From Flavobacterium sp. CG_23.5 (GTDB lineage: Bacteria; Bacteroidota; Bacteroidia; Flavobacteriales; Flavobacteriaceae): a stretch of 64,000 nucleotides of DNA. The notes beneath the pieces were generated by a model. That model saw only the letters and a list, made by a program, of their open reading frames with translations, was not told the origin of the DNA and did not search any database. The stretch spans positions 3,437,001 through 3,501,000 of the forward strand of contig NZ_JAGGNA010000001.1 in NCBI RefSeq assembly GCF_017875765.1, in the 5' to 3' direction. Each line of letters starts with the position of its first letter. Positions within the stretch are counted from its first letter, which is position 1. The translations under genes were made by a program, and so were the position numbers. This document shows, in pieces, positions 17,237 through 61,731 of the stretch.

Positions 17237-17262
17237 GCTTCGCCAGTTCGTTTCGCTCGTGT
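17237..17262. repeat. Dispersed repeat, CGCTCGTGT family, copy 2
   Basis: GCTTCGCCAGTTCG followed by TTTCGCTCGTGT resembles the copy at 53924-53950 with a few changes. It lies between truA and the preferred start of the ABC exporter gene and creates an open N-terminal extension of that frame. Confidence 0.6.
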
Positions 17263-17334
17263 CCTGCTATTCGTTTCAATCTTTTTTGTCTCGTTAAAAA
17301 ACGAGTCAAAAAAGGATTTCCACTGCTATCAGGG

Positions 17335-18105
17335 CTATTTCGTAATGTAATCGTATTCTATTTCGGTTAAATACAAACCATGCGCCGGAACCGAAAAACC
17401 AGCTTTGTCTCTGTTTTTGCTTTTTATGATAGCATTAAAATCGGCTAATGTAATCTTGTGTAAACCTATATTTATCAAAGTTCCCACAATGGCGCGAACC
17501 ATATTTCGTAAAAAACGATTGGCCGAAATGGTGAAAATCAGCTTTCCGTTTTCTTGTTTGTCTACGCCCTGTTCGGCTGTGCCTCGAGTCCAATTGGCTT
17601 CAAAAATCGTGCAATCAAAGGTGTTTACGTCAGTATTTACTTTAGAGAAACATTGAAAATCAGTATAGTTAAACAATAATTCAGCAGCTTCGTTCATCAA
17701 ATCCACATCTAGCGGCTGATGGAAATACCAACTTTGTTCCTGTAAAAACGGATCTTTAAACGTGTTGATGTGGTATTCATAGGTTCTTTTTACAGCGTCA
17801 AATCGCGTGTGCGCTTCATCGTGAACGGGAATAATATCATAAACAGCAATGTCTTTTGGCAAGTAGGAATTGAGTTTGTGTACCAGATTCGGAATGTCAA
17901 AAGGTGTTTCAAAATCAAAGTGTGCATACATTTCCTTGGCGTGAACTCCCGTATCCGTTCGTCCGGCTCCCATGAGATTGATTTCGGAATTCAATAAGGT
18001 GGAAACGGCTTTGTTCATCGTTTCCTGCACTGACGAAGCATTAGGTTGGTATTGCCAGCCGTGATAATGAGTTCCGTTGTATGCTAATTTTATAAAATAT
18101 CTCAA
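17335..18105 (-). CDS. truA: tRNA pseudouridine synthase A
   Basis: TruA converts uridines 38-40 of the anticodon arm of many tRNAs to pseudouridine. The 256-residue length is normal. Asp51 in GAGRTDTGVHA is the catalytic residue, and RFLRNMVRAIVGTL near the C-terminus is the conserved second motif. The start codon is TTG: it gives the canonical N-terminus (RYFIKLAYNGTHYHGWQ) and no ATG lies at that place. A TATCTTTG -7 box is at 18125-18132. Confidence 0.95.
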   Translation of the reverse strand: MRYFIKLAYNGTHYHGWQYQPNASSVQETMNKAVSTLLNSEINLMGAGRTDTGVHAKEMYAHFDFETPFDIPNLVHKLNSYLPKDIAVYDIIPVHDEAHTRFDAVKRTYEYHINTFKDPFLQEQSWYFHQPLDVDLMNEAAELLFNYTDFQCFSKVNTDVNTFDCTIFEANWTRGTAEQGVDKQENGKLIFTISANRFLRNMVRAIVGTLINIGLHKITLADFNAIIKSKNRDKAGFSVPAHGLYLTEIEYDYITK

Positions 18106-18132: not shown

Positions 18133-18229
18133 CTTATTAATTTTTCTCTCGAAGAATCAAAGGTGTAATGTTTTTTGGTCTGAAACTTATTTTTTATTTG
18201 GAATGGGAATGTCTAATTTTACCAAAATT

Positions 18230-18322
18230 CCTAGCCCAGATAGAAGCGGTATCCTTTTTATCACGCCTTTTCGGCGGATAAAAAGATACAAGCGGATAGC
18301 TGGAAATAGCTCCTTAAAAACT
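18230..18322 (+). repeat. Flavobacterial hairpin element in a leader (candidate structured RNA)
   Basis: The core is a 17-bp hairpin with two one-base bulges (18249-18267 with 18273-18289; loop TTTTC). It is flanked by AGCCCAGATAGAAGCGG on the left and AGCGGATAGCTGGAAATAG on the right; the right part can form a second small stem. The flanks resemble a dispersed element I recall from other Flavobacterium genomes. It lies in the 5' leader of the phosphoesterase gene. Confidence 0.55.
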
Positions 18323-59692: not shown

Positions 59693-60172
59693 TTATTTTG
59701 GTCGTTTGTATAAAGGTAAGGAGGTCAAGTATGCAAGCGCTTCCGCACCCAAATCTCCTTCTTTGCTAAATGTCCAGACAAATAAAGCTTTCAAAGGATG
59801 AACGCTGCGTATGCTTTCAATTGCCTGCAGTGTCAGTTGCTTTGCAATTCCTTTTCTCCGATATTCTTCTAAGACTAACGCGGAGCATAAATACAAAGCT
59901 TCATATGCAGTATCCAAAGGCGTCAGTTCAAATAGTTCTTTTTCAGAGATTTTATTTTCAAGAAATTGGTGCATTAAATTAAGTGTCGTCGGAATTAGTA
60001 AAACCCACGCCACAGGACCATTTCCAAAATCAAATTCTAAAACTGTTTCTGGATGTATCCTTTTTAATTGCTCGATTACCTTGTCATCTACATCAAGTTG
60101 GCTTGGGTCATTTTTGACGGCAAAAACAGTATCAGCCAGTTGTAACATCCGTTCAAAATTACTTTTTTGCAT
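59693..60172 (-). CDS. GNAT-family acetyltransferase
   Basis: This 159-residue protein has the GNAT acetyl-CoA motif A in ALVLEEYRRKGIAKQLTLQAI (R-x2-G-x-A form) and a following strand LKALFVWTFS. It would acetylate a small molecule or a protein amine; the substrate is unknown. The stretch upstream (60173-60540) contains the candidate small RNA on the opposite strand, so the RNA points away from this gene. Confidence 0.8.
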   Translation of the reverse strand: MQKSNFERMLQLADTVFAVKNDPSQLDVDDKVIEQLKRIHPETVLEFDFGNGPVAWVLLIPTTLNLMHQFLENKISEKELFELTPLDTAYEALYLCSALVLEEYRRKGIAKQLTLQAIESIRSVHPLKALFVWTFSKEGDLGAEALAYLTSLPLYKRPK

Positions 60173-60313
60173 AGCTTTACTATAGAATTTTAAAAATTGA
60201 TTTGTTACGCCAACAAGTGTGAATTTTGTGATGATTTTACAATAAATACCATAAACTGTAAATCTTGCAAAATAATCAAAAAATTATATAAAATTCAAGC
60301 TGTAGGTTCTACT

Positions 60314-60321
60314 TATCTTTG
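60314..60321 (+). promoter_or_regulatory. -7 box of the candidate small RNA
   Basis: TATCTTTG matches TAnnTTTG. Transcription would begin about 60326-60330, which is where the closing stem of the RNA begins. The -33 region is only weakly matched (TTC at 60295-60297). Confidence 0.5.
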
Positions 60322-60327
60322 TAATAT

Positions 60328-60492
60328 ATAAATTCTGTTTAGTAATATTACAGCTAATTTGATAGGTTGGCAAAATGGCATCAAGTACATAGAGGTTTCC
60401 CAACCTTCCGTCTATGACCAACGAATCGGTACACGAGCTTGATACCCGTTAATTAGTATTGAATAATGATGTTACTAAATAGAATTTTTTAT
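60328..60492 (+). ncRNA. Candidate structured small RNA, about 160 nt
   Basis: A 16-bp closing stem pairs 60330-60345 with 60472-60487 (one G-U, no mismatch) and is followed by a U-rich tail. Inside, CTAATT/AATTAG and GGcATCAAG (60377-60385) with CTTGATaCC (60438-60446) continue the rod. A further hairpin CATAGAgg (60388-60395) with 60408-60416 closes a 12-base loop whose CCAACCT (60400-60406) is complementary to AGGTTGG (60364-60370), allowing a pseudoknot. No reading frame is present. A 6S-like RNA (the 6S-Flavo family) is one alternative; an unknown sRNA is another. The rest of the 60173-60540 gap shows nothing else. Confidence 0.5.
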
Positions 60493-60540
60493 TTTATCCA
60501 AAGCTAATCAAATACCTCGTTTCGCCAATCATTTTAAAAA

Positions 60541-61731
60541 TTAAGGGATCGAATTCAGGTGACGCGCAAGATAAACGCCCATGCTAAAGCAAGATTGAAG
60601 AAGATAGCCGCCCGTGGGTGCATCCAAATCGATCATTTCTCCAATACAAAAATGATTCTTCAACATTTTCAATTCAAAATTTTCATCTAAGGCATTCAAG
60701 TTAACTCCTCCAGTGGTGGATATGGCTTCGTCTAATAGGGCAAAACCCATTATTTCAATTGGGAGTTTTTTGATGTTTTGTGCCAAAAGTTCCGAATTAA
60801 GATAGGTTTCTTTTGAAAGGTATATTTTCAAAAGTCCAATTTGTGCCGGACTCATTTTAAGCTCTTTTTGTAATTTTTCGCTCGTTTTTTTTAAGGTTGA
60901 TTTTTTGAGCTTATGAAGCAAATCATCATAGCTTAATGTTGGTTTTAAATCTAAGAAGATAGTAGCATTTTGCTTGTCATTAAGTTCTTCCCGAATTTGC
61001 GGGCTGATTGCATAAATGGCATTTCCTTCTAAACCAAAACGTGTAAGCACTACTTCGCCTTTTTGACTTTTATCGCCACAGCTAACTGCTATATTTTTAA
61101 GCGGATTTCCTTCATATAAGTCAATGAAATCAGGATTCCAGTTTACCCCGTAAGCGCAATTGGAGGCTTTAAAAGGAATAACTTCTATCCCTTGTGTTTT
61201 GAATAGTTCGAGCCATGTCCCATCAGAGCCTGTTACTTTCCAGCTACCTCCGCCCAAGGCGAAAACAGTATAGTCAGATTGAACTTCAATGGCATCATTG
61301 AAGACAAGATTATGGTCACTGTCCCAGCCTGTCCAAGTATTTTGATACTGAATGGTAACACCTCGTTTACTAAGCACATCTAAAATAGCGTTAAGCACTT
61401 CGATAGGTTTAATTCCGATTTCAGGATATATGCGTTTACTACTACCTATGTAAGTTGGGATACCCATAGTATCAATCCATTTTTGAAAATCAAGGTTATC
61501 AAAATCAAGTAGCGCTTCTTGCAAAAAATGCGATGGCGTATATCGATCAACAAGTTGCGCAATGGGTTCTGAATGAGTAAGGTTAAAGCCTCCTTTTCCA
61601 GCCACAAGGAATTTTCTTCCCAGCGTTTTGTTTTTCTCGTAAATGGTAACGTTAAATTTCTGAGGGTCGAGAAATGCGGCAAGCAAAAGTGCTGCAGGTC
61701 CTCCACCAATAATTGAGACTGATTTCTTCAC
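60541..61731 (-). CDS. BaiN/RdsA-family NAD(P)/FAD-dependent oxidoreductase (HI0933-like)
   Basis: This 396-residue flavoprotein has SIIGGGPAALLLAAFLDPQ (FAD-binding), GRKFLVAGKGGFNLTHSEP, VFALGGGSWKVTGSDG and a C-terminal TTGGVNL plus CIGEMIDLDAPTGGYLLQ, all typical of the HI0933/TIGR03862 group. The substrate is unknown; some relatives reduce bile-acid-like or other small molecules. A TATTTTTG box lies at 61736-61743, so the transcript may be nearly leaderless. Confidence 0.9.
   Translation of the reverse strand: MKKSVSIIGGGPAALLLAAFLDPQKFNVTIYEKNKTLGRKFLVAGKGGFNLTHSEPIAQLVDRYTPSHFLQEALLDFDNLDFQKWIDTMGIPTYIGSSKRIYPEIGIKPIEVLNAILDVLSKRGVTIQYQNTWTGWDSDHNLVFNDAIEVQSDYTVFALGGGSWKVTGSDGTWLELFKTQGIEVIPFKASNCAYGVNWNPDFIDLYEGNPLKNIAVSCGDKSQKGEVVLTRFGLEGNAIYAISPQIREELNDKQNATIFLDLKPTLSYDDLLHKLKKSTLKKTSEKLQKELKMSPAQIGLLKIYLSKETYLNSELLAQNIKKLPIEIMGFALLDEAISTTGGVNLNALDENFELKMLKNHFCIGEMIDLDAPTGGYLLQSCFSMGVYLARHLNSIP

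Follow-up and report, generated by a model that had tools for sequence, protein, structure and literature searches.

The intergenic RNA predicted at 60330-60497 on the plus strand of the analysed Flavobacterium sp. CG_23.5 DNA (64,000 nucleotides, referred to here as the window) is, judged from sequence and covariance-model comparison, a divergent Bacteroidota lineage within the wider Atu_At1 superfamily, i.e. a sister branch by descent. Homology to this superfamily appears practically certain. We attribute the locus to a trans-acting structured RNA that would be used under stress and would have a conserved protein or a part of the ribosome as its partner, a reading to which we give a probability of roughly 50%.

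Both flanking genes are encoded on the minus strand, namely an upstream gene for a 159 aa protein (59693-60172), for which Pfam and NCBIfam searches at 1e-5 were negative, and a downstream gene assigned by family search to a TIGR03862/HI0933-like flavoprotein (60541-61731). The RNA gene, about 160-168 nt long with both ends putative, is predicted from its fold, from covariance-model hits spanning 60341-60469, and from the lack of a reading frame: no ORF of at least 60 aa in the window ORF list overlaps the region, in line with the original prediction. Its calculated fold of -44.8 kcal/mol compares with -30.8 kcal/mol (sd 4.0) in 200 shuffles (z -3.5), none of which was as low. The promoter-like TATCTTTG is present at 60314-60321 (+) and fits TAnnTTTG, given in the available portion of PMC9723704 as the consensus -7 box of flavobacterial sigma-A promoters; this match marks a putative start, with the caveat that the motif alone is common (129 occurrences in the window, about one per kb and strand). 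Of 31 Bacteroidota-type copies, 7 (from two groups) have it no more than 35 nt ahead of the core, where about one is expected, and by eye the similarity among the copies nearest to the window copy begins at this box. The transcript would be closed by an outer stem of 16 bp, 60330-60345 with 60472-60487, which contains one G-U (60337/60480) as described before and can be extended to 20 standard pairs. A U-rich tail, likewise noted earlier, is seen at 60485-60497 (+) and probably marks the 3' end.

The outer stem was evaluated in 31 Bacteroidota-type copies. Their own arms pair with a mean of -13.4 kcal/mol vs. -7.5 kcal/mol for swapped arms, and none of 5000 permutations was as good. The stem is not universal: for 21 of the 31 copies at most four swapped partners paired equally well, and for 10 at least 12 did. 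The original prediction was to fall if relatives did not keep the closing stem; it is kept in those 21 copies, whereas about 10 show no clear outer stem and retain the inner helices. In three copies with a weak outer stem (L219, L220 and L222) an ordinary terminator-like hairpin follows P1 instead, as judged by eye.

Inside this stem, the core (all plus strand) comprises helix P1 (60354-60359 with 60451-60456), P2 (60374-60378 with 60446-60450) and P2b (60380-60385 with 60438-60443), followed by the P4 hairpin at 60388-60416 (60388-60393 with 60411-60416), the P5 hairpin at 60417-60430 (ACC/GGU, conserved loop AACGAA) and a conserved joining strand A..CGAGC at 60431-60438. P1, P2, P2b, P4 and P5 are assigned by covariation, the P5 loop and the joining strand by conservation, also among model-found copies. 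The U/C-rich P4 loop holds 60400-60406, which forms a pseudoknot with 60364-60370 through seven Watson-Crick pairs; this pairing had been proposed from the window alone, and the same helix covaries family-wide. One of the two inner stems proposed with it, 60388/60416, coincides with P4, whereas the other, 60377/60446, has to be shifted to the family register of P2, 60377/60447.

In an alignment of 50 diverse rows (A1), 90.8% of the cells are paired in the family structure, compared to 34-47% after sliding the partners by one to three columns, and 600 two-sided cells are found vs. 190 in shuffles. The pseudoknot alone reaches 97.4% paired cells in A1 with two-sided change in all seven pairs, its count of further pair types being at shuffle level (15 vs. 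15.4). Among 28 Bacteroidota-type rows (A5, from which the degenerate copies L230, L232 and L233 were excluded), 98.4% of the cells are paired, with two-sided changes in 21 of 33 pairs; here the pseudoknot is paired in 100% of the cells and its further pair types are weak (43 vs. 39.4 in shuffles; 16/500). The compensatory changes looked for in relatives thus support both helices and pseudoknot, and with them the original picture of a structured RNA that stands on its own and has a closing stem and a pseudoknot. The curated structure of RF02496 differs in that it places a 4-bp hairpin at the pseudoknot strand, where covariation supports the pseudoknot. For this hairpin 85.5% of the cells pair (20-63% when slid) vs. 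86.8% in shuffles, its pairing is reached by 481 of 500 shuffles, and one two-sided change is seen; being at shuffle level with that single change, it is without covariation support and may be possible as a transient fold.

Twenty-three positions are kept in both groups, in at least 85% of 40 rhizobial-family and at least 90% of 19 Flavobacterium copies, all obtained from searches with a model trained on A1 rows. The 40 are drawn from 54 model-search places, with genomes already represented and a few weak places omitted, and the three degenerate copies named above were excluded from this count as well. The search patterns fix TTTT, CCAACGAA, GG, A and CGAG, so that the invariance of those A1 columns is partly built in. 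A sub-branch in the Rhizobium family (L300, L302, L303, L304 and L306) carries a TTGGGAAT-like segment and CACCC in place of the P5 loop and the CGAG strand; the EcfG-type promoter box (see below) is kept in four of these five copies.

Rfam at curated thresholds makes no call at the RNA locus. A permissive search returned 6 matches up to E 10, including Atu_At1 (RF02496, "Rhizobiales sRNA") at 60351-60455 with 47.9 bits (E 4.8e-7 for 361 nt). The match covers the full model (positions 1-108), with helices and conserved strands in the same order. As the gathering score of RF02496 is 60 bits, the window RNA falls outside the family by curated score, and it differs further in its AU-rich helices, its promoter type and its Bacteroidota host. 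The Atu_At1 match has a genome-wide E of 1.2e-6 and, with strict filters, is the sole one among 249 genomes of the host's family, a sample with mostly one genome per genus. Under a covariance model (R2) whose 39 rows, including 10 viral ones, all come from outside Bacteroidota, the window copy scores 66.2 bits with a significant E of 4.5e-17 and with helices P1, P2, P2b, P4 and P5; genome-wide it is the single hit up to E 1 (E 2.6e-15). Since R2 holds no Bacteroidota rows, the homology is not an artefact of having the window in the model. Applied to 32 further Bacteroidota-type sources, R2 scores 29 at E <1e-11, L235 at 0.0017 and the degenerate L210 at 0.45, and gives no match to the decayed L212.

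The two other Rfam families for which a scan had been suggested do not match the RNA locus. A 6S-like RNA (6S-Flavo, RF01685) had been named as an option; no 6S match is found here up to E 10, and 6S-Flavo, a flavobacterial non-coding RNA like the window RNA, occupies a separate locus of this genome (C1:1395801-1395909; 82.4 bits, just below the Rfam cut-off of 85). Flavo-1 (RF01705) matches the window only at 17256-17340 (-) and 18229-18310 (+), a pair about 1 kb apart scoring 76 and 66.7 bits. The second option, an undescribed sRNA class, holds insofar as the RNA falls beyond the curated cut-off and named taxon of RF02496, and is revised insofar as it represents a far branch of that existing family. 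An open-access literature search found no functional paper on Atu_At1/RF02496, a broader one no description of such an RNA family, and "At1" is not named in the available portions of Agrobacterium RNA papers. A copy on plasmid At of Agrobacterium fabrum C58 (NC_003064.2:55154-55265) is, going by the family name, presumably the Rfam founder of Atu_At1.

Three approaches supplied the copies: DNA similarity inside the genus, a pattern in viral and genome contigs, and covariance models. The model finds 21 copies in 18 of 198 Flavobacterium genomes, with up to 3 per genome, one of them degenerate, and in a phylum sample of 296 Bacteroidota genomes the hits are 3 in Flavobacterium plus a weak one. 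Of 121 genomes in the family of one Rhizobium, 38 have the RNA, with up to four copies; a class sample gives its central genome only (1/289). Thirty-nine genomes chosen as carriers contain one to four copies each. The genome-contig pattern scan matched at least 118 contigs, 80 of them with titles shown; among the matches listed most belong to Rhizobiales, with a few sphingomonads, Caulobacteraceae and Bacteroidota. Copies on contigs without a title are termed rhizobial or alpha-type by sequence likeness. By eye, 24 of 40 viral contigs and 5 of the at least 118 genome contigs were dropped as pattern-only matches, and L006 is a duplicate. Re-scoring took 49 of 64 viral loci, including nine of the 24 dropped: 27 of the 49 match at E <1e-19, some of them near-identical, and none of the nine falls below E 0.1 (L057: 16.6 bits, E 0.11). 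Of eight viral loci searched against Rfam, seven exceed the gathering score of RF02496. With one rhizobial-type copy as query, 190 plasmid records are matched, 108 of them from Agrobacterium and 41 from Rhizobium. Plasmid and phage collections gave short partial matches to the window sequence, none covering 80% of the query, and the phage collection no match to one rhizobial and one viral copy.

In a midpoint-rooted tree of 100 nt, 30 Bacteroidota-type copies group in a single clade (support 0.91) that is separate from 103 other bacterial copies; 21 viral copies are scattered around. This single clade is evidence for an old split rather than for recent acquisition from rhizobia. Mis-binning or contamination appears to account for the copies on contigs assigned to Bdellovibrio (L108, Flavobacterium-type), Arenimonas (L140) and Bacillus subtilis (L147). 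Several window neighbours recur at another locus (L212/L023, G267 C23), where the RNA is present only as a decayed copy. The host genome has a stress island of its own at C1:735-741 kb (L308, C1:733000-741000), partly homologous to RNA-carrying islands of three other genomes (G277, G425 and G255). No RNA was found there after the DUF892 gene, the best model score with filters off being 15 bits (E 0.02); the site is empty, and the DUF892 gene runs straight into the next gene. Together, the empty site and the decayed copy in G267 indicate a separable module that was gained or lost, and on the evidence of its distribution the RNA family is an accessory module of some bacteria, plasmids and viral contigs.

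A link of the family to stress is considered very likely on the basis of promoters and neighbours. According to the portion of PMC3892343 available, the R. etli EcfG consensus is GGAAC-N16-CGTT. An EcfG-type box, defined as GGAAC-N15..18-[CG][GA]TT ending -77 to -83 from CCAACGAA, precedes 66 of 104 non-Bacteroidota genome-contig loci among the matches listed, vs. 9 of 2261 control windows; for the strict form GGAAC-N16,17-CGTT the numbers are 33 of 104, again among the matches listed, vs. 3 of 2261. An earlier count with a tighter window, superseded by these, gave 30/118 (strict) and 54/118 (relaxed) among the matches listed, vs. 7/1977 and 45/1995. The box is found in 30 of 40 model-found rhizobial-family copies, and hence is not universal there. 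On plasmid At of A. fabrum C58 the RNA precedes ligD by 44 nt, with genes for Ku, a second LigD-type ligase and Hsp20 in the vicinity. A Dps-like ferritin gene occurs within 5 kb of the RNA at 8 of 30 Bacteroidota-type loci; given the density of ferritin-domain genes (37 in about 61 Mb), about 0.2 such loci would be expected, the loci not being independent. Several of them represent one and the same island found in different species, and the number of events is accordingly smaller than the count. One representative ferritin was checked by family search, and seven of the places also appeared in the ferritin-domain search. DUF892, DUF2383 and DJ-1 proteins recur near Bacteroidota-type copies as well. 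The window copy itself is outside any Dps/DUF892/DJ-1 stress island, and TATCTTTG takes the place of the rhizobial-branch EcfG-type box, which is absent. With this position and a housekeeping-type box, a stress role of the window copy would be carried over from its relatives.

Action in trans is regarded as probable from the gene arrangement. No gene family is common to most loci, the largest neighbour cluster comprising 8 of 30 Bacteroidota-type loci and, in a separate clustering, 20 of 146. Neighbour Pfam counts in the rhizobial set revealed no clean enrichment between 150 near and 86 far ORFs (of 152 and 87 listed, all called mechanically): response regulators (6), histidine-kinase ATPases (5), DNA glycosylases (4) and DJ-1 (3) among the near, response regulators (2) and DUF892 (2) among the far ORFs. 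Where a nearest downstream ORF exists (78 loci), it is on the opposite strand in 51, as in the window, and on the same strand in 27. A terminator-like hairpin follows the RNA in 12 of 100 copies vs. 9 of 919 control windows. These strand relations and hairpins, together with the variation of downstream genes between copies, argue against a cis leader of general-stress genes, riboswitch-like or acting in translation control, of which the free-standing copies would be strays. The leader reading draws on an aptamer-like pseudoknot, on the C58 copy just upstream of ligD, and on 29 of 82 alpha-type copies (vs. 361 of 1720 random positions) that precede a same-strand ORF at 10-150 nt with a ribosome-binding-like sequence; on balance we consider it improbable. 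Six of 27 viral contigs, from three lineages only, have a tRNA or tmRNA gene directly next to the RNA: tRNA-Met adjoins it in L250, L259 and L260, tRNA-Ser on the other strand in phage contigs L045 and L050 (23 and 21 predicted tRNA genes, respectively), and in a Flavobacterium-type contig (L044, 6994-7507) the RNA model match lies 3 nt before a same-strand tmRNA gene. In a further viral group the RNA is located near terminase genes.

Many trans-encoded stress sRNAs act by pairing with mRNAs, and the fold might merely stabilise an antisense-type RNA directed at stress mRNAs. The model for this would be GsrN of Caulobacter crescentus, an sRNA driven by the general stress sigma factor that pairs with katG mRNA via a C-rich loop (PMC5869019, available portion). 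Like GsrN as described there, EcfG-boxed family copies would be small RNAs under the alphaproteobacterial general stress sigma factor, and the promoter is of the same kind; by that description GsrN differs in its C-rich pairing loop, none such being apparent in the window RNA. The conservation that crosses phyla resides in the folded core (U-run of the P4 loop, P5 loop and A..CGAG) with no evident free seed, and an antisense function would need to persist across phyla whose mRNAs differ. We therefore hold antisense pairing to be rather unlikely. EcfG/RpoE2-dependent sRNAs have been reported in R. etli (PMC3892343) and S. meliloti, as far as the available portions go; the R. etli example described there, ReC64, is an EcfG-dependent non-coding RNA, as the EcfG-boxed family copies would be, and differs in its length of 88 nt and its location downstream of the phyR-tcrY locus.

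Two further explanations start from the closing stem. It could be the terminal inverted repeat of a small mobile element with the RNA as passenger, which would agree with the patchy occurrence, the multiple copies in single Flavobacterium genomes including a degenerate one, the empty site in the host island and the identical arms in four copies. Conversely, arm sequences differ among copies and still pair in most, similarity of the copies nearest to the window starts at the promoter box (by eye), and a gene family common to most loci was not found, rendering this explanation very improbable. 6S-Flavo has an end-closing stem, and a 6S-type RNA that binds RNA polymerase would suit both this stem and the stress setting; given the missing 6S-family match at the locus, the 6S-Flavo elsewhere in the genome and the pseudoknotted core, we attach next to no weight to it.

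In summary, a trans-acting structured RNA used under stress is the preferred reading. Sequence comparison shows a compact core made up of a P1/P2 stack, a P4 hairpin with a loop that base-pairs at the P1-P2 junction, and a short P5 hairpin whose loop is conserved. The RNA would be made under stress, in the window copy from a sigma-A-type promoter, and the rigid core would serve to expose the P5 loop together with the A..CGAG strand to a partner shared across phyla. When a complex bacterial RNA is widespread and its core is conserved, it tends to have a specific function. The conserved core, the lack of an evident free seed and the occurrence in two phyla and viral contigs favour such a phylum-conserved partner over mRNA pairing, and the 23 positions kept in both groups and the tRNA or tmRNA neighbours in three viral lineages add to this. 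A protein or a component of the translation machinery is the most likely candidate, as opposed to a single mRNA; a protein or ribosome partner in particular is proposed tentatively, at slightly less than even odds. More speculatively, and with doubt prevailing, the family may be a phylum-crossing, phage-carried class of pseudoknotted RNAs that dock on some conserved component of the translation apparatus upon activation of a stress promoter; bacteria would collect them in stress islands, and plasmids and phages would carry them, some beside tRNA or tmRNA genes, to steer the same machine.

For the family as a whole, the Rfam entry "Rhizobiales sRNA" emerges as a structured family found chiefly in soil alphaproteobacteria and shared with flavobacteria, plasmids and viral contigs. 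It has a covariation-supported pseudoknot, which is missing from the curated model, and a general-stress promoter box before many copies. With this promoter link and the list of carriers, the function of the RNA becomes directly testable by deletion and pull-down.
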